From: Phycisphaerae bacterium
Lineage (GTDB): Bacteria > Planctomycetota > Phycisphaerae > UBA1845
Assembly (NCBI GenBank): GCA_028289375.1
Contig: JANQQK010000039.1
Span: forward strand, 1-64,000
Reading direction: 5' to 3'
DNA length: 64,000 nucleotides
The number at the start of each line of letters is the position of its first letter. Position 1 is the stretch's first letter. Shown here piece by piece: positions 3,381 to 12,559 of the stretch. The notes beneath the pieces were generated by a model. That model saw only the letters and a program-made list of their open reading frames with translations, searched no databases and was not told the origin of the DNA. The position numbers and the translations under genes are program-made.

Positions 3381-3890
3381 ATGTCACGCTCCTGCACGCT
3401 CAAAGGCAACGCCCTCTCCCTCGAAGGTCCGGAACTCAAGGTCGGGGACAAAGCCCCCGAAGCTTCCCTCAAAAAGAACCTCGTCGAGTCGATGAACCTC
3501 TCCGAAACCTCGGGCAAGGTGCGCATCATCAGCGTCGTCCCCTCACTCGATACGCCTGTCTGCGCTTTGCAGACAAAGCGGTTCAACGAGGAAGCCGCCG
3601 CCATCGACAACGTCAGCTTCATGACGGTGTCGTGCGATCTTCCAGTGGCGATGAGTCGTTTCTGCGGCGCTGAGAACATCGACATGGAGAAGATGCACGT
3701 GCTGAGCGACCACAAGGACACGAGCTTCGGCAAGTCCTTCGGGACGCTCATCCCCGATCTCCGCGTCGAATGCCGCGCTGTCTTTGTGCTCGACAAGGAC
3801 GACACGATCAAACACGCAGAGTACGTCGGCGAAGTGGCAGATCACCCCGACTACGATGCCGCATTGAATTGTGCCAAGGGACTCGTTTGA
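3381..3890 (+). CDS. tpx: Thiol peroxidase (Tpx, atypical 2-Cys peroxiredoxin)
   Basis: A 169-residue protein of the usual Tpx length. It reduces hydrogen and lipid peroxides using thioredoxin. The family signature is clear: PSLDTPVC places the peroxidatic Cys at residue 61, with Thr58 in the active site. The resolving Cys is Cys95 (RFCGAENI). An AAGGA ribosome site lies upstream of the ATG. It is monocistronic, with a candidate promoter before it and a hairpin terminator after it. The family is normally cytoplasmic or periplasmic; no signal peptide is seen here, so cytoplasmic is likely. Confidence 0.95.
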   Translation: MSRSCTLKGNALSLEGPELKVGDKAPEASLKKNLVESMNLSETSGKVRIISVVPSLDTPVCALQTKRFNEEAAAIDNVSFMTVSCDLPVAMSRFCGAENIDMEKMHVLSDHKDTSFGKSFGTLIPDLRVECRAVFVLDKDDTIKHAEYVGEVADHPDYDAALNCAKGLV

Positions 3891-3928
3891 CGCGGACTTG
3901 TCGCGCCTGATGTGAAAACAATCGGGTC

Positions 3929-3955
3929 AAAGGCGTCGAATCACCGACGCCTTTT
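3929..3955. terminator. Bidirectional terminator between tpx and the FHA-phosphatase gene
   Basis: AAAGGCGTCG, a 6-nt loop and CGACGCCTTT form a perfect stem with T-runs on both strands. It lies between convergent genes, so it can end transcripts from either side. Confidence 0.8.
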
Positions 3956-3967
3956 TCATGCGCTCAT

Positions 3968-5614
3968 TCAGACCGTCGCCGTTTGGGTCTGCGTTTGAGG
4001 CCCAACGCGCAACGCCATCATCGTGAGATCGTCCGACTGCGGTGCACCATGCGAATGCGCCGAAACCGCTTTGCGCATGCGACGGATCACACCGTTCGGA
4101 TCATCCCCGATGCACTCATGCAGCACATCGATCATGCGATCCTCGCCAAACAGCTCATCATCCGCACTCATCGCTTCATACACGCCATCCGTGTAACCGA
4201 AAATCGTCACCGGCCCCTGCGTTAGATCGAACTCGGCCGTCTGGTAGCCGGCGTCCTCGACAATTCCCAACGGCAGCCACGGCTCAGCCTTGAACGGCCG
4301 CACCTCGCCTGTTTCGTGGTAAATCCCGTAGGGCGGCGGATGACCAGCCAACGCCAGTCGCATCTTGTTTGCGTCCGGATCGACGATCGCCGCGAAACAC
4401 GTCACAAATTTCGACGCATCCGTGTTGTCGTACAGCAACCGATTCCACTCGGTCAGCAACTCGCTCAGATCATCACTCTGCGACATCGTCAAACGCACCG
4501 CACCCTGCAGATTGGACATCAGCAACGAAGCAGCCACACCCTCACCGGTCACATCGGCGATCAGAAAACCAATGCGACCGTCGTCCAGCGTGATCACGTC
4601 GTAGTAGTCACCGCTGACCCCGCGCCCCGGCTCATTCAGTGCGGCGATGGCCAGGTTTTCGCGCTGTGGCAACGTCCGCGGAAAGAGAATCTGCTGAATT
4701 TCACGAGCGACGGCCAACTCCGCCTCGTACTCCAGTTTCTGTTTCTGCTCTTCCATCAAGCGGGCGTTGATCAGCCCGATGGAGACCTGCCGCGCAATGG
4801 CCGCCAGGAAATCGACATCCTCCTTGGAGTAGGTCGTCCCCGTCGATGTCCGATCGCCGTAAATGACACCCAGAACATTCTTCTCATGCTCAAGCGGCAC
4901 GCACATCGCCGATCGGATTCCGTGTTGCACCATGCTCACCGTCGGATCCACCTTCTGACCACCGCTATCGGTGATGACCGCGCGCTCGCCATGATCCATC
5001 GCACGCCCGAGTATCGATCGGCTGACCGTCAATTCACCCGTCGCCGCGCGCAGATTGCGTACGATAGGCCAATCCACGCCACGACCGTTCACCTTACGCA
5101 ATCCCACCGCACCACGTTCAAACCGCAGCATGTCGAAACAGATGTCCATCGCGTCTTCAAGCAGGATCTGCCGGTCTCGCAGCTTGGTCAGCCGCTCGCT
5201 CAAGTCGTAGATCATCTGCAACCGGCGCTGGCTCAACTCAAGCGAGATCTGAGGGGACCGAAAACTCGCCGCAGCCGACGTCGTGTCATCCGCCACGACC
5301 ACGGTGCTGAACCGATCGGCTGCCTGTCGTTCATCGAGGAAGCGTACCTCCACCGAACCGATCGAGACGAGGTCCATGTGCGACAGCTCATGGACCTGAA
5401 TACGCTGCTCGTTAACAAGCGTACCGTTCTTGCTGCCAAGATCCTGAATCACACACTGGCCATCATCGCAGCGCAGCATCGCATGCCGCCGCGACGCACT
5501 CGGATCGTCAAGCAGAATGCCGCACATCGGGTCACGTCCCAGCACGTGCGCACCGTGCGGAATCGCCTGTTCCTGCGAACGACCGTCAGCATATCGAATT
5601 TGAAGATGGGCCAC
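3968..5614 (-). CDS. FHA-GAF-PP2C (SpoIIE/RsbU-type) serine phosphatase
   Basis: A soluble signalling protein with three domains. The FHA domain (about 1-95) has GRD, SRRH and SKNGTLVN, the residues that bind phosphothreonine. The GAF sensor domain is at about 150-310. The PP2C-SpoIIE phosphatase (about 330-545) shows SGDYYD, IADVTGEG, AGHPPP, GYTDGVYE and SDDLTMMAL. Relatives dephosphorylate anti-sigma-factor antagonists in partner-switching systems. The start is chosen as GTG at 5614, which shares a base with the stop of the MazG-like gene (TAGTG). An in-frame upstream extension would overlap that gene by about 120 nt. No anti-sigma or antagonist gene lies nearby, so the target is unknown. 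Confidence 0.88.
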   Translation of the reverse strand: MAHLQIRYADGRSQEQAIPHGAHVLGRDPMCGILLDDPSASRRHAMLRCDDGQCVIQDLGSKNGTLVNEQRIQVHELSHMDLVSIGSVEVRFLDERQAADRFSTVVVADDTTSAAASFRSPQISLELSQRRLQMIYDLSERLTKLRDRQILLEDAMDICFDMLRFERGAVGLRKVNGRGVDWPIVRNLRAATGELTVSRSILGRAMDHGERAVITDSGGQKVDPTVSMVQHGIRSAMCVPLEHEKNVLGVIYGDRTSTGTTYSKEDVDFLAAIARQVSIGLINARLMEEQKQKLEYEAELAVAREIQQILFPRTLPQRENLAIAALNEPGRGVSGDYYDVITLDDGRIGFLIADVTGEGVAASLLMSNLQGAVRLTMSQSDDLSELLTEWNRLLYDNTDASKFVTCFAAIVDPDANKMRLALAGHPPPYGIYHETGEVRPFKAEPWLPLGIVEDAGYQTAEFDLTQGPVTIFGYTDGVYEAMSADDELFGEDRMIDVLHECIGDDPNGVIRRMRKAVSAHSHGAPQSDDLTMMALRVGPQTQTQTATV

Positions 5615-5907
5615 TACGACTTCGTGGTGCACGTGCAGACATACAAACTGCAACCCGGGCACCCTTCTCCATATTTCTTCCGCAACGCCGCCGTCAGGTC
5701 GATTCCTTCGACATTCGCCAGCGTCACCACCCACGCGATCACGTCAGCGAACTCACCCTCCAGTTCGGCTTTGTCACCCTCAGCGATCGCCGCCGCAAGT
5801 TCGCCAACCTCCTCTGACAACCAGAGAAAGGTCCGCGCCGATCCGCGCTCGCGGTCCTTGCTCGAATACATCTTCTCAATCAAGGCTTGAAGATCATCGA
5901 TCGTCAT
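5614..5907 (-). CDS. MazG-like nucleotide pyrophosphohydrolase
   Basis: A 97-residue all-alpha protein. EEVGELAAAI followed by EGEFADVIAW gives the ExxE...ExxD metal-binding pattern of MazG/dUTPase-like NTP pyrophosphatases, which hydrolyse (d)NTPs to NMP and PPi. The C-terminus has an unusual CPGCSLYVCTC cluster that could bind a metal. The start is ATG 5907; a longer frame upstream would be non-family sequence overlapping the previous gene. A TATACT lies only 7 nt before the ATG, so a leaderless transcript is possible. The next gene starts in its stop codon, implying translational coupling. Substrate is not predictable from the sequence. Confidence 0.85.
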   Translation of the reverse strand: MTIDDLQALIEKMYSSKDRERGSARTFLWLSEEVGELAAAIAEGDKAELEGEFADVIAWVVTLANVEGIDLTAALRKKYGEGCPGCSLYVCTCTTKS

Positions 5908-5930
5908 GGTCGCCAGTATAGCGACCTGAC

Positions 5931-7706
5931 TCAGTGACCGATACGGGCGGACGCATTGGCCGTCCCAAGGTCGGAAACCTGCCGGGGAAGATCGAATTCC
6001 AGAAGGGCAAATCGTCCGTTGAACCACGTCGACCGCGCTCGCAATGCCGACAAGTCCCGCTGCATCCGCGTCGTCGGCGTTCCCTCGGGCGTGTGCTTTT
6101 CCATATCAATCAGAATCCACCGGACATTCCGCTCTCGGCAGAATCGCGACAACTCCGACAGGCGTGTCTCCTGACCGTACAACTCGCGGTAGCGCTCGTA
6201 CCACCCGCGCGCCGCCTCCGCGTCAAACGGAAAACACTTCCAGTCAAAATATGGAATGCGATGCGCGTGCGCGCGGAAACCCCGAATCGTCGGCGTCACC
6301 AAGACCATGTCATCCGGCCCCACGACGTCGTCCACCCGCGCGAACGCCTCGGCCATCGACGCCTCCAGTTCGTTCCACCGTGTCGTCGTCATCCGCTCCG
6401 TCACCGACAACGGCCCCCCGAACATCAATAAACCAATGACCGCTGCCACCACACCGGCCATCGATGCCCCTCGTCCTCCCCGCCCTTTCGACGCAACACA
6501 GCCCAACACAAGCACGACGCATAACATCGCTGCAAACTGCCACACCACCGACTGCCAACCCGGCAGCACGCACCACAGCAAGGCAGCCGTCACGAGCGTC
6601 ACAATTCCAAGAATCGTCCGCACTACCGACTCGCGAACGAACGACTCCTGCGATGTGACGATGTCGGTGAGCACAGTCGCCGCCCCGATCGTGCCAATGA
6701 TGTTGAAGTACACCAGGCTGCGATACGGATACGAGACCGCCGCCAGTTTCACACGAATCCATTCAATGCCCACGAATCCGCCGATCGCAATCACCGACAA
6801 AGTCGACAACACCAGGAGCAGCTGCCGACCACGCCGTCGCTGCATGTCCGTCAGTCCGAACATCAACCATCCAACCGCCGACAACCCCAGACCCAGCGTC
6901 AGGATCAGCCGTGCCACACGATTGAACGACCATGTCGAAATGACCGTGTGATGCGGATGCCGCGTCAAACAGAATATCTCGACAAACTCACGTCCACCCA
7001 TCCCTTCGGAGGGATGCGTCATGCCATACCAGATCAGTGGCGTTGCACCGATCAGGTACGCCACGACAACGGGAAGCAACGCCCGAATCCGCCGGACAAC
7101 GCCCCCCTGCTCCCCTGCCACGATGTGCATCACGCAGATGGCCAGCAACGTGTGCGCCGCCACAATCGGATGAAACAACGCACCCACCAACATCGCCACC
7201 GACGCCCACGACATCCGCCCAAGCATGACCAACAAAACACCAACAAAACAGCAAGGCCACGACAGCCCAACCGGCGTCCCGAATGGCGGCAGAAAGTGGT
7301 AGCCGCTCGCCGACGCCAATGCGCGCTCCCCCAGTAGGAGCATCAGAAATACAAACACACCCCGCGACGCACCGCCGATGACACGACACCCGAACATCAT
7401 CGCCATCATCCCGGCCACCACCGACACAACGCGTACCGCGTACATCGCCGATTCAACACCGACCCAACGCGCCATCGACGCCGTCAGGTGCACAAACACA
7501 ACGTGCTGCGAACCACTGTTGAGAAACGGATCGTTGGGCAGGTAGGTTGGATCAAGCAACCGCTGAATGTGCGGCAGCAGGACCTCGTGATCGGACAGGC
7601 CGAACTCGGTCGGATAGCGGACGATCCAGAAAGATGACGCGACCAGGACGAGCAGAATGCCCGTCAGGTAGGATCGCCAATCCCGCGCTGCTTTCTGGTC
7701 GTTCAT
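5931..7706 (-). CDS. Polytopic membrane protein, function unknown
   Basis: About 590 residues with roughly ten hydrophobic segments, the first at residues 13-30. A soluble tail of about 170 residues (GPDDMVLVTPTIRGFRAH, then ERNVRWILIDMEKHTP) follows. Multi-TM N-terminus plus extracytoplasmic C-terminal domain resembles lipid-linked glycosyltransferases or DUF6798-like proteins, but no catalytic DxD or ExD motif was certain. ATG 7706 is preferred because it puts a short basic/acidic stretch directly before TM1. An upstream ATG at 7772 adds 22 residues without an obvious ribosome site. It lies 23 nt before the MazG-like gene in the same direction. Confidence 0.7.
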   Translation of the reverse strand: MNDQKAARDWRSYLTGILLVLVASSFWIVRYPTEFGLSDHEVLLPHIQRLLDPTYLPNDPFLNSGSQHVVFVHLTASMARWVGVESAMYAVRVVSVVAGMMAMMFGCRVIGGASRGVFVFLMLLLGERALASASGYHFLPPFGTPVGLSWPCCFVGVLLVMLGRMSWASVAMLVGALFHPIVAAHTLLAICVMHIVAGEQGGVVRRIRALLPVVVAYLIGATPLIWYGMTHPSEGMGGREFVEIFCLTRHPHHTVISTWSFNRVARLILTLGLGLSAVGWLMFGLTDMQRRRGRQLLLVLSTLSVIAIGGFVGIEWIRVKLAAVSYPYRSLVYFNIIGTIGAATVLTDIVTSQESFVRESVVRTILGIVTLVTAALLWCVLPGWQSVVWQFAAMLCVVLVLGCVASKGRGGRGASMAGVVAAVIGLLMFGGPLSVTERMTTTRWNELEASMAEAFARVDDVVGPDDMVLVTPTIRGFRAHAHRIPYFDWKCFPFDAEAARGWYERYRELYGQETRLSELSRFCRERNVRWILIDMEKHTPEGTPTTRMQRDLSALRARSTWFNGRFALLEFDLPRQVSDLGTANASARIGH

Positions 7707-7829
7707 TCCGTCGTCCGGCGGCCATGGGTGCGACGTGTCGGGCATCCAAGCGAACCGACGCACCACACCCATTGATTATCGGACAGAAGGACTGCGCACT
7801 TCGTGATGAACCACGATCCGGCAACGCGG

Positions 7830-9188
7830 TCAGGCGCCACCAAGACCAAACGCATCGTGAATCGCGCGAACCGCCCCCGGTCCGTCATCGCCCTTCACGA
7901 CCAGGCACACGCTCAGCTCGCTGGAACCCTGGGCGATCGCCTCAATGTTAATAGATGCATCCGACAAAGCGCCAAAAATTCGTGCAGCCACGCCGACCGA
8001 ACCGCGCATTCCCGAACCCACCGCCGCGACAACCGCCACGTGCTCATCCACCTCGACCCGCTTGGCCGCGTTCGTCCGCAGCAACTGCCCCTCAAGAACC
8101 GCACGGGCACGCGGAAGCTGGGACTCTGCGACAACCAGGGAGATCCCGGCTTCACTGACAGTCTGAGAAATCATTTGTACGTTGACTTCCGCCTCCGCAA
8201 GCGCCGCGAACACCTTCGCCGCCGTCCCCGGGCGACCGACCATCGCCGCACCCGCCACATTGATCAACGCCACGTTCTTCAGCAGCAAAACCGAGCGCAT
8301 GGTGGCCGTGGTCGGCGCGGTCTCGGTAATCAGCGTACCGGGGCAATCGGTGTTGAACGAACTCCGCACGCGAACCGGAATCTTGTGCTCAGCCGACGGC
8401 TCCAACGCCCGCGGATGCATCGACTTGGCCCCGAACTGGCCCATCTCGATCGACTCGGCGAACGTGATCTGATCCAACAGCTGAGCACCCGGCACATTGC
8501 GCGGATCGGCTGTCATTAACCCGTCCACGTCGCTGCAGATCCAGATCTCATCCGCCTTGAGCGCCGCCCCCAGAAGCGTGGCTGTGTAGTCCGACCCGCC
8601 GCGACCGATCGTCGAGATCACCCCATGCTGCGTCGCTCCCAGAAATCCCGTCACCACGATGCGTTCACCGTTCGCCATCAGCGGTTCCAGATTCTCATGA
8701 ATCTGGTACAGCGACAGGTTCATCAGCGGCTCGGCCTCACCATGTTGATCGTTCGTGACGATGCCGACCTCCTGCCCGGTCATCGCGCGACCGTCGAGCG
8801 CTGCCGCCGTCAGAATGGCGGACAATTGCTCACCATGCGACACAACCGCGTCACGCGACCGCGGCGTCAACTCACCCACCGCAACGATACCCGCGACAAG
8901 CGTCTCGAGATTCGCCAGCAGCGGCTCGACCTTCTCCATCACGCCAAGCTCAGCCGCAGCCTCCTCATGACGACGTCGAATTTCGGCCAACAGCGTGTAC
9001 TTCACTGACCGGTTGCCCGACCCCGCCGCCTCCGCCAATTCCAGAAGCAGGTCCGTCACACCACCCATTGCCGACACGACCGTGACAACCTGGTGCTTTT
9101 CCTGTTGGGCACGGACGACGTCGGCACATCGACGAATCTTCTCGGCATCGGCCACCGACGAACCACCGAACTTCATGATGATCTTCAC
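7830..9188 (-). CDS. lysC: Aspartate kinase
   Basis: Phosphorylates aspartate, the first step to lysine, threonine and methionine. The kinase domain (1-270) begins KFGGSSVAD (residues 6-14), and later shows GRGGSDYTA and FGAKSMHPRA. Two ACT domains fill residues about 290-450, so feedback inhibition by lysine and/or threonine is likely. The start is GTG 9188, which overlaps the hom stop in GTGA and has GGGGGAAG just upstream; ATG 9176 is an alternative. It is the last gene of thrB-thrC-hom-lysC. This is a single-function kinase of about 452 residues, not fused to homoserine dehydrogenase. Confidence 0.96.
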   Translation of the reverse strand: MKIIMKFGGSSVADAEKIRRCADVVRAQQEKHQVVTVVSAMGGVTDLLLELAEAAGSGNRSVKYTLLAEIRRRHEEAAAELGVMEKVEPLLANLETLVAGIVAVGELTPRSRDAVVSHGEQLSAILTAAALDGRAMTGQEVGIVTNDQHGEAEPLMNLSLYQIHENLEPLMANGERIVVTGFLGATQHGVISTIGRGGSDYTATLLGAALKADEIWICSDVDGLMTADPRNVPGAQLLDQITFAESIEMGQFGAKSMHPRALEPSAEHKIPVRVRSSFNTDCPGTLITETAPTTATMRSVLLLKNVALINVAGAAMVGRPGTAAKVFAALAEAEVNVQMISQTVSEAGISLVVAESQLPRARAVLEGQLLRTNAAKRVEVDEHVAVVAAVGSGMRGSVGVAARIFGALSDASINIEAIAQGSSELSVCLVVKGDDGPGAVRAIHDAFGLGGA

Positions 9189-10204
9189 GATCTTCCCCCG
9201 ATCACATTCCAAATATCCAACAGATCCCGCATGACCGACGTCGCCGTCTCAATCCCGCCCGCGCCGCGACCAATCAACGTGATGTCCGAACTGGCTTTGA
9301 GCGACAGCGTGATCGCGTTCAAACTGGCCGGCACGTCGAGCGGATCGCCGATCGGCACCTCCTGCGGTGCGACCGACAGGGCTTCTCCGATTTCACCGAT
9401 CAGCTTCAGGTGGTTTCCTCGTTGCGCAGCCTCCTCGATGCGTTCCCGCGGCAAACCACGAATGCCCTCAACCTTCACGTCGCCAATCGTCGCCGGTCGC
9501 CCCAGCACGTAGTTGGCCAAGATCACGACCTTGGTGGCCGCATCAACGCCGTCGATGTCAGCGCTCGGATCGGTCTCCGCATATCCCAGGTCGATGGCTT
9601 CCTTCAGCACCGTGTCGAAATCAAGCCCCTCGCTGTGCATCTTCCACAGGATGAAATTCGTCGTCCCATTGAAGATGCCACGGACCATGGTCACCTCGTC
9701 GCCCCGGGCGCACTCGCGGGCCACGTTCAAAACAGGCGTGCCACCGCCGACCGTCCCGCTGAATCTGAATTGCACGCCGTTGAATTCCGCCAGCTCCAAC
9801 ATCGCCGGCATCGCAGCCGCGAGTGGCGCCTTGTTGACACTGATCGCGTGCTTGCCGGTCCGGAACGCGGCTTTGAGATTCTCTATCGATCGTCCGGGTG
9901 TCGACATCTGACTCGGTGACGCTTCCACCACAATGTCGGCGTCGCACTCGGCGATCAGTTGCGCCGCGTCGACTGTCCGCACGCCGTGACCTGCCACCCC
10001 CGCGACCGTTCCCGTGGACTCCTTCGCAGCCCGCAGTTCATCGGCGCTCAACCCGCGCTCGGAAACAGCGGCTCCCGTCGAATCGCACACCCCCACCAGT
10101 CGTGGCGACAATCCCTGCTGCTGATACAGCACCGACTGCTGCGCTTCCAGCAGATCGATAAACGACCTCGCCACCACACCATATCCCACCACGAAGATTC
10201 TCAT
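9185..10204 (-). CDS. hom: Homoserine dehydrogenase (short form, no ACT domain)
   Basis: Reduces aspartate semialdehyde to homoserine with NAD(P)H. The Rossmann fold starts at the first residues (RIFVVGYGVVARSF), and the family motifs NGTTNFIL and DPSADIDGVDAATK are present. At 339 residues it ends after the catalytic domain and lacks the usual C-terminal ACT domain, so feedback control may rest on LysC. The start is ATG 10204, sharing ATGA with the thrC stop. The longer upstream frame is the thrC tail read out of frame. Confidence 0.95.
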   Translation of the reverse strand: MRIFVVGYGVVARSFIDLLEAQQSVLYQQQGLSPRLVGVCDSTGAAVSERGLSADELRAAKESTGTVAGVAGHGVRTVDAAQLIAECDADIVVEASPSQMSTPGRSIENLKAAFRTGKHAISVNKAPLAAAMPAMLELAEFNGVQFRFSGTVGGGTPVLNVARECARGDEVTMVRGIFNGTTNFILWKMHSEGLDFDTVLKEAIDLGYAETDPSADIDGVDAATKVVILANYVLGRPATIGDVKVEGIRGLPRERIEEAAQRGNHLKLIGEIGEALSVAPQEVPIGDPLDVPASLNAITLSLKASSDITLIGRGAGGIETATSVMRDLLDIWNVIGGRS

Positions 10205-11382
10205 CGTAGTCCCAACGCCTCCTGCAACGAATCGAGCGTCGGCTGGGCATGCAGAATGGTCGGTTCGACGCGCAGAATCGCATCCGGATCCTTGAGACCG
10301 TGACCCGTCGTCACGCACACCACCGTCTCAGCGTCAACGCCATGCTTCTTGAGGTAGGCAATCGGGGCAACCGACGCAGGTTCGACAAAAACACCCTCGC
10401 GGTGTGCGAGTTCTCGTTGTGCCGCGAGAATTTCGGCGTCACTGACGGTCGCAGCCAAACCGTGCGAATCGTGGATCGCCGCCACCGCCTTCGCCCAGTT
10501 GACCGGCGCACCGATGCGGATGGCCGTCGCAATCGTCTCGGGTTCGGACACGTAGCATTTGTCAAGGTTGTCGTTCACGAACTTGGCGATCGGGGCAGCC
10601 CCTTCAGCCTGCACGCCGATCATCCGCGGCAGTTTCGTCGACAAACCGGCGTCACGGAATTCGCGGAAGCCCTTCCAGATCGCACTGATGTTGCCGGCGT
10701 TGCCCATCGGCAGCACGAGCGCATCCGGCGCGTCGCCCAACGCCTCGCACACCTCGAACGCCAGCGTCTTCTGCCCCTCCAGTCGAAACGGGTTGATCGA
10801 GTTCAACAGATACACATCGCCGGTCTCAGCCGACAGTTCCCGAACGACACGCATGGCGTCGTCAAAATTGCCGTCGACCTGCACGATCTGAGCACCGTGC
10901 GCCACCGACTGCGCGATCTTGCCCATGGCCACGTTGCCGCCGGGAATCAGCACGACCGCGTTCAGCCCCGCGCGACCGCCATACGCTGCCAGCGACGCTG
11001 CGGTATTGCCCGTCGACGCGCACGCAACCGCCTTCGCCCCCATCTCGATCGCCTTGGTGACACCCACTGTCATCCCGCGATCCTTGAACGAACAGGTCGG
11101 ATTCTCGCCCTCGTTCTTGACAAACATTCGATCGATGCCGTACATCTTCGCCAACGTCGGGCAAGGGTGAAAACCCGTATCGCCCTCGCTCAGCGATACC
11201 CGCTTGCTCGCATCAACCGGTAGAAACGACGCGTACCGCCAAACCCCCCGGCCGCACATCTGAACATCACCGAGCGAGTTCGCATCAACGGCGATTTCCA
11301 GCACGCTGCCGCACGCGTCACAGGTGAACACCACCTGCTCCAGCGGATACCGTGCGTCGCATTGGATGCACCGTTGGATCAC
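10201..11382 (-). CDS. thrC: Threonine synthase
   Basis: Converts O-phosphohomoserine to threonine with pyridoxal phosphate. The PLP lysine is Lys100 in NPTCSFKDRG. A GxGN-like loop (GNTAASLAAYGGRAG) and SINPFRLEGQ follow. The N-terminus carries a zinc-ribbon pair (Cys5/Cys8 and Cys21/Cys24), as in the short threonine-synthase class. The start is GTG 11382, sharing GTGA with the thrB stop, with GGAGG about 10 nt before it. Length (393) is normal. Confidence 0.96.
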   Translation of the reverse strand: MIQRCIQCDARYPLEQVVFTCDACGSVLEIAVDANSLGDVQMCGRGVWRYASFLPVDASKRVSLSEGDTGFHPCPTLAKMYGIDRMFVKNEGENPTCSFKDRGMTVGVTKAIEMGAKAVACASTGNTAASLAAYGGRAGLNAVVLIPGGNVAMGKIAQSVAHGAQIVQVDGNFDDAMRVVRELSAETGDVYLLNSINPFRLEGQKTLAFEVCEALGDAPDALVLPMGNAGNISAIWKGFREFRDAGLSTKLPRMIGVQAEGAAPIAKFVNDNLDKCYVSEPETIATAIRIGAPVNWAKAVAAIHDSHGLAATVSDAEILAAQRELAHREGVFVEPASVAPIAYLKKHGVDAETVVCVTTGHGLKDPDAILRVEPTILHAQPTLDSLQEALGLR

Positions 11383-12311
11383 GCGATTTCCTCCACAACC
11401 TGCGCCGCCGGCCCCACCGACGTCACGTGCACCACGCTCGACAACCCCGCCGTCTCAAATCCCGCCTTCATCGCATCAACCACGCGCTCTGCCCCGTCGC
11501 CGACCACGGCCATCACGGTCGGTCCCGCGCCACTGATCGTCACGCCGAACGCGCCGGCTTGCTTCGCCAATCGACGCACTTCGTCGAATCCGGGAATCAG
11601 CGGCGATCTTGCCCTATCGACAAATGATCCCTCGACGGCTGCGCCCAATGCCGCCGCGTCCCCGCGTATCAGGGCAGCCGTTATCGCCCCGCACCGCGCG
11701 CAGCCGGCTGCATACTCCTTCATCGTCACGGACGACGGCATCACCTTGCGGGATTCCTCGGTCGCCAACTCCACGCCCGGAGTGGCCACCACGAATCGAA
11801 TCTCCGATGCTGCATCCACGACCGTCAATCGCAACGGCTCGCGCTGATCCACGATCGTCAGCCCGCCGCAGATCGCAGCTGCGACGTTGTCCGCGTGCGC
11901 CGCCCCCGCCGCCGCACGCTCGCCCTCTGCCGCAAACGTCACCAGTTCCGTTTGGGACAATCCAAGTCCGAACAGCGCGTCGATCGCGACGACGGCTGCC
12001 GCAGCACTGGCCGCACTCGACCCAAGACCGCTGCCGGGTCGGATCCCCTTGGCGATGTGCATCCGCAGTGGTTCATCGAGGCCATGAGCAGCCATGACCG
12101 CGCGGACGGCCAAGCCTGCCGTGTTCCGCTCCCATTCCGCTGGAATCCCGTTGCCTGTCTGCCCCTCGATGTCGATGGCTGACGCACGATCCGCCCGTTC
12201 GAGCGTGACAACATCCGAGGCTGCGTCGACACACAGTCCGAACGCATCAAACCCGTACCCGAGGTTGGCGATCGAGGAGTAGGCTTTGACTTTCACGGCG
12301 GTGTCGACCAT
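11379..12311 (-). CDS. thrB: Homoserine kinase (GHMP family)
   Basis: Phosphorylates homoserine. The GHMP ATP loop is RPGSGLGSSAASAAAAVVAI, near residues 90-110; the N-terminus has the substrate stretch SIANLGYGFDAFGL. The C-terminal GHMP motif appears as AGAFGVTISGAGPTVMAV. AGGGG lies 4-8 nt before ATG 12311. It is first in the thrB-thrC-hom-lysC operon. No threonine attenuator peptide was seen in the leader. Confidence 0.95.
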   Translation of the reverse strand: MVDTAVKVKAYSSIANLGYGFDAFGLCVDAASDVVTLERADRASAIDIEGQTGNGIPAEWERNTAGLAVRAVMAAHGLDEPLRMHIAKGIRPGSGLGSSAASAAAAVVAIDALFGLGLSQTELVTFAAEGERAAAGAAHADNVAAAICGGLTIVDQREPLRLTVVDAASEIRFVVATPGVELATEESRKVMPSSVTMKEYAAGCARCGAITAALIRGDAAALGAAVEGSFVDRARSPLIPGFDEVRRLAKQAGAFGVTISGAGPTVMAVVGDGAERVVDAMKAGFETAGLSSVVHVTSVGPAAQVVEEIA

Positions 12312-12347
12312 GCCCCTATCCTAGCTTGGGGCGGTGTGAATCTAAAG

Positions 12348-12377
12348 TGGACTGACCGCGTGATTTGTTCCGATAAT
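12348..12377 (+). promoter_or_regulatory. Candidate promoter of the 29-codon mini-ORF
   Basis: TGGACT, an 18-bp spacer and GATAAT (12372-12377) point rightward into the mini-ORF, giving a leader of about 86 nt. The region also serves as the upstream flank of thrB. Confidence 0.4.
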
Positions 12378-12469
12378 CCCAGCAACGTGAACCCGTGTGC
12401 GGATGCGTCCGGTGCTGTTGTTTTCGGACGTTCGAGACGTACACACACCATGAACAAAAGGATCAAGCG

Positions 12470-12559
12470 ATGTTCTTTGACACCATCCTGACGGACCTGT
12501 TCTTCCAGTTTCTCAACGTCCTGATCAGCACGCTCTTCGGTGGGCTCACGCTCGTTTAG
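12470..12559 (+). CDS. Putative 29-aa hydrophobic membrane miniprotein
   Basis: ATG at 12470 to TAG at 12559 encodes 29 residues beginning MFFDTILTDLFF. Apart from two Asp near the N-terminus the peptide is almost wholly hydrophobic and could span the membrane once. AAAAGGA lies 8 nt before the start and a sigma70-like promoter lies upstream. The ribosome site sits in the loop between GAACA and TGTTC (12452-12475), a possible translation-controlling hairpin. It overlaps the tail of the convergent glutaredoxin-like gene by 14 nt. No family is recognised; reality of the gene is inferred from promoter, ribosome site and hydrophobicity. Confidence 0.45.
   Translation: MFFDTILTDLFFQFLNVLISTLFGGLTLV

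Follow-up and report, generated by a model that had tools for sequence, protein, structure and literature searches.

The closest described relatives of the phosphatase considered here are RsbU-like PPM phosphatases with a GAF sensor, a group that includes RsbZ of C. difficile and OsaC of S. coelicolor and has solved relatives in RssB, Rv1364c and SiaA. RsbU triggers the general stress response, and stress phosphatases such as RsbZ have a GAF-linker-PPM layout (PMC12143880); another report describes STAS proteins as substrates of PPM phosphatases (PMC11418112). Fusions with an FHA domain are also on record: the Sorangium cellulosum proteins sce0876 and sce6543 have a SpoIIE-like domain fused to FHA or GAF, the two sensors being named on separate proteins (PMC2887360). 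For MazG, the nearest solved relative is the single-domain protein SSO3215 of Sulfolobus (PDB 1vmg). Both kinds of protein are known; no description of the two as a pair was found in the open-licence literature searched.

The window (the whole stretch of DNA analysed, 64,000 nucleotides from a Phycisphaerae bacterium) has a mazG-like gene running directly into the gene of an FHA-GAF-SpoIIE phosphatase (Table 1). This phosphatase has in common with the RsbU-like group the PPM aspartates and a long helix between sensor and PPM domain, and with the phosphatases of PMC12143880 the GAF-linker-PPM layout. Unlike them, it has an N-terminal FHA domain, is preceded by mazG and has no adjoining STAS or RsbW-type kinase gene, the neighbours of an rsb operon. 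It resembles the S. cellulosum fusions but carries FHA and GAF together. The explanation towards which we lean, with modest confidence, is a lineage-specific two-gene transcription unit that joins a housekeeping MazG to a stand-alone RsbU-like phosphatase whose targets are encoded elsewhere.

Table 1. Coordinates of the gene pair and its features within the window
Feature	Position	Strand	Details
TATACT, -10-like box, candidate promoter of the pair	5915..5920	-	7 nt ahead of mazG ATG
mazG-like gene	5907..5614	-	97 aa; ATG at 5907, stop TAG at 5616-5614
MazG C-terminal four-cysteine tail CPGCSLYVCTC	5629..5661	-	CxxC..CxC pattern in orthologues
TAGTG junction	5612..5616	-	mazG TAG and phosphatase GTG have G at 5614 in common
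FHA-GAF-SpoIIE (PPM-type) protein phosphatase gene	5614..3968	-	548 aa; GTG start 5614-5612, stop TGA 3970-3968
FHA domain	5357..5545	-	residues 24-86; Pfam E 5.7e-19
GAF domain	4775..5176	-	residues 147-280; Pfam E 1.7e-12
Long helix joining GAF to phosphatase domain	4685..4825	-	residues 264-310; AlphaFold2 model secondary structure
SpoIIE/PPM phosphatase domain	4004..4585	-	profile match residues 344-537; Pfam E 6.6e-47

Two conserved proteins and a one-base junction

The first gene encodes a predicted housekeeping, single-domain nucleoside-triphosphate pyrophosphohydrolase. It matches the MazG profile (PF03819) at E 1.8e-11, with 44.6 bits against a cut-off of 22, and its active-site residues are intact: the EExxE..ExxD motif, which we take to be the metal-binding motif of MazG, can be read directly in the window protein and occurs in 81 of 82 aligned orthologues. 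The best PDB match of the structure model (pLDDT 94.8) is 1vmg, with a similar fold and 49% identity over 80 alignment columns, and the MazG-like DR2231 structures rank 38th or lower among its fold matches. No NCBIfam model that would point to a substrate passed its cut-off for this protein; the same scan gave no model over cut-off for the phosphatase. The protein ends in a four-cysteine tail, present in 81 of the 82 aligned orthologues and in 79 of the best 80 MazG loci listed from named genomes (the 80th is cut by a contig end). The match to 1vmg runs over residues 3-79 of the query and 17-93 of the 95-residue chain; it stops before the tail, which thus has no counterpart in SSO3215. To judge from its sequence, it is likely a metal site. 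Its consensus in planctomycete orthologues, GCPGCGxxxCxC, is nearly invariant.

The second protein is predicted to be a stand-alone RsbU-like PPM enzyme. Its SpoIIE profile match scores 160.4 bits (cut-off 25), and six aspartates (D336 and D339, just ahead of the profile match, with D354, D476, D528 and D529), presumably the metal ligands of a PPM domain, are identical in all 70 aligned orthologues. This alignment, A1, has 70 rows and omits nine orthologues: six that were flagged for an internal stop, their alignments having run past the normal one, another that lies at a contig end and has an unusual length, and two that are partial. The FHA domain is similarly conserved at the residues that we take to be its phosphothreonine-binding set (G26 in 69/70 rows, R27 in 67/70, S41 in 69/70, and R42, H44 and N63 in 70/70), as well as at G64 (70/70). 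In the structure model (pLDDT 88.5) the FHA domain, the GAF domain, the long helix (block pLDDT 87-93 in the monomer model) and the PPM domain follow one another. The PPM part has its closest solved folds in RssB, Rv1364c and SiaA, and the FHA domain is closest, by sequence and by fold, to those of OdhI, GarA and Rv0019c (TB39.8); the matched chains of these three are short (about 94-186 residues), and the searches gave them neither a GAF nor a phosphatase match.

The Pfam matches bear out the domain identities, MazG and FHA-GAF-SpoIIE, that an earlier sequence-only reading of this DNA had assigned. That reading went further and suggested a nucleotide-stress response. Spelled out, MazG would keep the nucleotide pool clean, and the phosphatase would detect either nucleotides, by means of its GAF domain, or a partner in phosphorylated form, and would then turn on a stress regulon. 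The GAF domain speaks against this: a pattern search for NKFDE-like sequences, presumably the motif of classical cyclic-nucleotide-binding GAF domains, found none in the 70 orthologous GAF regions. Nucleotide sensing by this domain accordingly lacks sequence support; other ligands are possible.

Reading the sequence at the junction confirmed another of the earlier observations, that the stop codon of mazG and the start codon of the phosphatase gene have one base in common. The mechanical ORF list gives longer frames for both genes (5614..6027 for mazG and 3968..5734 for the phosphatase) because it begins each frame at the first possible start codon. The phosphatase frame is indeed open up to 5734, and one might argue that the protein starts at a different codon and that the wrong choice of start has created the overlap. 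This is highly improbable: phosphatase alignments of relatives in the window's family (f1) start at residues 1-10 of the shorter form (rows at contig ends excepted), the FHA match begins at residue 24, an extended N-terminus would sit within mazG in another frame, and the TAGTG is identical in the only other genome of the window's genus. The MazG alignments of f1 relatives likewise start at residues 1-3 of the 97-residue form.

The overlap had also been taken as a mark of special coupling, a claim that finds no support here, for two reasons. First, among 31 pairs measured (with start codons picked by script), the 1-nt overlap is confined to the window's genus, both genomes of which have it, and the other 29 pairs have gaps of +9 to +348 nt. 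Second, a minus-strand run upstream at 7830-12311, with genes identified by NCBIfam as thrB (homoserine kinase), thrC (threonine synthase), hom (homoserine dehydrogenase) and ask (aspartate kinase), has three junctions (thrB/thrC, thrC/hom and hom/ask) that can be read as 4-base stop/start overlaps, so overlap is common in that run.

Adjacency across the order

Conservation was followed in 114 genomes of the window's order, with thresholds of E 1e-60 for the phosphatase and E 1e-20 for MazG. The phosphatase was matched in 93 genomes, MazG in 101 and both in 85. With adjacency defined as same strand, less than 1 kb apart and mazG first, the pair is adjacent in 30 of these 85 genomes, or 31 if one counts G098, where a phosphatase fragment lies downstream of mazG at a contig edge and is likely a further pair. 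Among genomes with both genes, adjacency is found in 28 of 43 in f1, in 2 of 3 in a second family (f2) and in none of 39 in f4, f5, f6 and f8; within f1 itself, 14 of the 43 have the two genes apart. In the 39 genomes of other families the genes are on different contigs in 31 (assembly breaks possible in some), more than 300 kb apart in 7 and 6.7 kb apart in one. Furthermore, MazG occurs without a phosphatase match at E 1e-60 in 10 of 13 f5 genomes. Of 397 genomes drawn from across the class, 83 matched the phosphatase at 1e-55, and one of these 83 came from outside the order. The pair is a real, retained and lineage-specific neighbourhood, and it passes the check that the earlier reading had set, conservation in close relatives, with every adjacent case in f1 or f2. 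One genome of the sample, G026, has two FHA-GAF-SpoIIE copies at E <1e-60 (C28:1054-2673 and C83:31731-33344), one of which adjoins the single mazG match of that genome.

MazG itself is widespread in the phylum. The best 80 MazG loci listed from named genomes comprise 78 whose titles name Planctomycetota or members of that phylum, one titled Candidatus Binatota and one titled only bacterium. Within these 80 (some of which appear to be the same contigs as in the order sample and are not independent of it), 9 have a phosphatase of this kind at most 400 nt downstream, a tenth has it about 3.8 kb downstream and another has it on the opposite strand; the other 69 have none in the flank searched (at most 5 kb a side, often less). 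The Candidatus Binatota locus, L220, carries the pair, with a phosphatase alignment that begins 126 nt past the MazG match; the record is perhaps mis-binned or mislabelled.

How far this adjacency exceeds the local background can be judged from 128 stretches (127 new loci and one earlier), whose frames were clustered and whose neighbours were listed. Between genera of f1, MazG loci agree in the gene that follows MazG in 289 of 801 comparisons, (nearly) always the phosphatase, and in the upstream neighbour in 53 of 841. Phosphatase loci, in turn, have the same upstream gene in 289 of 838 comparisons and the same downstream gene in 34 of 925. Other neighbours at these loci are shared between genera about six to nine times less often than the pair partner; the surrounding gene order is mostly scrambled, and the pair therefore stands out. 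No p-value is attached to these counts because the comparisons are not independent, and they leave out the pairs of G033, G099 and G100, which slightly understates adjacency. At two loci (L069 and L070) mazG was masked by a longer phosphatase frame and was assigned by hand.

The neighbours were also considered as clues to function and were set aside: the ten recurrent ones differ by lineage and indicate no pathway. They are a sugar epimerase, an FG-GAP repeat protein, a TPR/peptidase-like protein, an ABC-2 membrane protein, DnaA, a GNAT-domain protein, a PEGA protein, a trypsin/PDZ protein and two proteins with no family over cut-off.

A phosphatase tree places these observations in order. It has 79 rows (the 70 of A1 and the nine omitted orthologues, trimmed at the stop), and its picture is the same as that of an earlier 70-row tree. 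All adjacent rows are on the side of the tree formed by f1 and f2, where 31 rows are adjacent, 17 are not and 2 have no call. A 28-row clade of f1 (SH-aLRT 99) is mixed: 16 rows are non-adjacent (G028 and G088 among them gave no MazG match), 11 are adjacent with gaps of 46-348 nt and 1 has no call. The remaining 19 f1 rows, which are not established as one clade, comprise 18 adjacent rows, none that is not and one without a call, with gaps from -1 to 142 nt. The simplest story is one gain followed by many losses, and on it we infer a single origin; the mixed 28-row clade, together with the at least ten changes of adjacency label that the tree needs, keeps this short of a demonstration.

The same pattern could be read as hitchhiking. 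The two genes would have become neighbours once by chance and would not yet have separated everywhere; neither a joint function nor a common transcript would be needed, and the overlap would be ordinary compaction where genes are densely packed. The confinement of the pair to two families of the order, the 16 unlinked rows of the 28-row clade, gaps that range from -1 to 348 nt and the three similar junctions of the thr run all fit such an account. It does less well with the background, since other neighbours have been dispersed far more thoroughly than the pair partner, and with the f1 rows outside the 28-row clade, where 18 of 18 rows with a call retain the pair. We regard hitchhiking as possible but doubtful, and the transcription-unit explanation as the better account; the sequence just upstream of the genes also bears on the choice.

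Candidate promoters and the upstream genes

Boxes resembling a -10 element were counted ahead of mazG and ahead of the phosphatase gene. The box test took matches of at least 5 of 6 positions, 4-60 nt from the start codon, against 200 dinucleotide shuffles; it is post hoc (the motif was first spotted by eye), the genomes are related and not independent, and matching a consensus does not prove a promoter. Pairs with a gap below 80 nt were called tight (n=18) and the others wide (n=13, with the phosphatase scored in 12). Before mazG, boxes occur in 9 of the 18 tight pairs (mean 1.6 in shuffles, none of the 200 as high), 7 of the 9 having a TG extension (shuffle mean 0.1), and their best -35 match is 3 of 6. 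Wide pairs have them before mazG in 4 of 13 (6 of 200 shuffles as high), and lone mazG genes in 10 of 51 (0 of 200), which is also some excess. Before the phosphatase the figures are 2 of 18 in tight pairs (60 of 200 shuffles as high), 4 of 12 in wide pairs (3 of 200), 6 of 17 in unlinked f1 and f2 genes (1 of 200) and 4 of 29 in other families (1 of 200). From these motif counts, a separate promoter for the phosphatase seems to be present only in cases where mazG is far away. That boxes in tight pairs precede mazG, not the phosphatase, is a further point against hitchhiking, and the test strengthens the transcription-unit part of the explanation that we favour.

In the window itself, the TATACT box has no TG, and a general promoter and terminator scan of 3850-12500 does not list the site. 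That scan returned 1 promoter-like site (1.9 in shuffles) and 8 terminator-like sites (6.9 in shuffles), no excess over chance. A 43-nt stretch just before the mazG start contains a hairpin (5908-5926, with TATACT in its loop region). The stretch folds at -14.5 kcal/mol in the window against -3.1 in the sister genome, and the hairpin was rejected as a conserved signal since it is not kept there.

At the level of translation, 3 of 18 tight pairs have a Shine-Dalgarno-like motif ahead of the phosphatase, neither of the two overlapping pairs among them, and 8 of 13 wider pairs have one (Fisher p 0.02, on sequences that are not independent). In the window's genus, where the pair would have tightened to a stop/start overlap, ribosomes that end mazG may begin the phosphatase by reinitiation.

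The transcript may also be longer than two genes, because a DUF6798 gene (5931-7772), between the thr run and the pair, is co-directional with mazG and 23 bases away from it. Among the loci compared, the order thrB-thrC-hom-ask, DUF6798 and pair occurs only in the window's genus. On the other side, a thiol peroxidase gene (3381-3890, plus strand; NCBIfam PRK00522.1, 177.7 bits, cut-off 123) is convergent to the phosphatase gene.

Candidate partners, possible mechanism and meaning

Profile searches of the genome to which the window belongs gave 11 SpoIIE matches, 9 STAS matches (PF01740), 9 HATPase_c_2 matches (PF13581; 4 over cut-off, 2 of them strong and RsbW-type) and 49 protein-kinase matches (some of which are pieces of one gene). 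The sequence-only reading had suggested locating a STAS/anti-sigma partner: genes of both types do occur in the genome, but none matches PF01740 or PF13581 on the contig of the pair. On another contig, C29, there is a STAS-RsbW-STAS cluster with a separate SpoIIE match at a distance of about 5.4 kb (C29:17835-18959 and 11884-12405), a candidate partner-switching module of this genome.

The nucleotide-stress idea draws on adjacency above the local background, on the title of PDB 3cra (E. coli MazG, the Regulator of Nutritional Stress Response) and on the role of RsbU in starting a general stress response (PMC12143880). A nucleotide-stress response is nevertheless unsupported, because MazG is widespread in the phylum and mostly has no such phosphatase nearby, because the GAF domain lacks the classical motif and because the STAS and RsbW-type genes are on other contigs; the complete lack of adjacency in the other families that have both genes, and the f5 genomes with MazG alone, point the same way. 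We consider it unlikely.

A stronger version would make the two proteins one device, in which the FHA and GAF domains of the phosphatase read the nucleotide state of MazG, or a metal bound by its tail, through contact or through a MazG product, so that the quality of the nucleotide pool sets a phospho-signal. Pairing across the clade and overlapping translation in one genus would then fix the ratio of MazG to phosphatase. This we hold to be very unlikely.

Under the transcription-unit explanation, the pair probably has a single origin, in an ancestor shared by two families of uncultured Phycisphaerae (Planctomycetota), and the two genes would be expressed from a common promoter. The FHA domain would dock on a phosphothreonine partner, the GAF domain would receive a signal and the long helix would relay it to the phosphatase domain, which would dephosphorylate a protein, most likely a STAS anti-anti-sigma protein, whose gene lies elsewhere. 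Selection would maintain the shared expression of the two genes; a common pathway, or a direct functional tie between MazG and the phosphatase, is possible but unproved.

If the pair does share a function, it would link the cleaning of the nucleotide pool to protein-phosphatase signalling in a genome with 11 SpoIIE and 49 protein-kinase matches, a complement whose signals, to our knowledge, have not been worked out. Even without a shared function, the pair is a natural experiment, since the same two genes stand together in some lineages and are separated in sister lineages.
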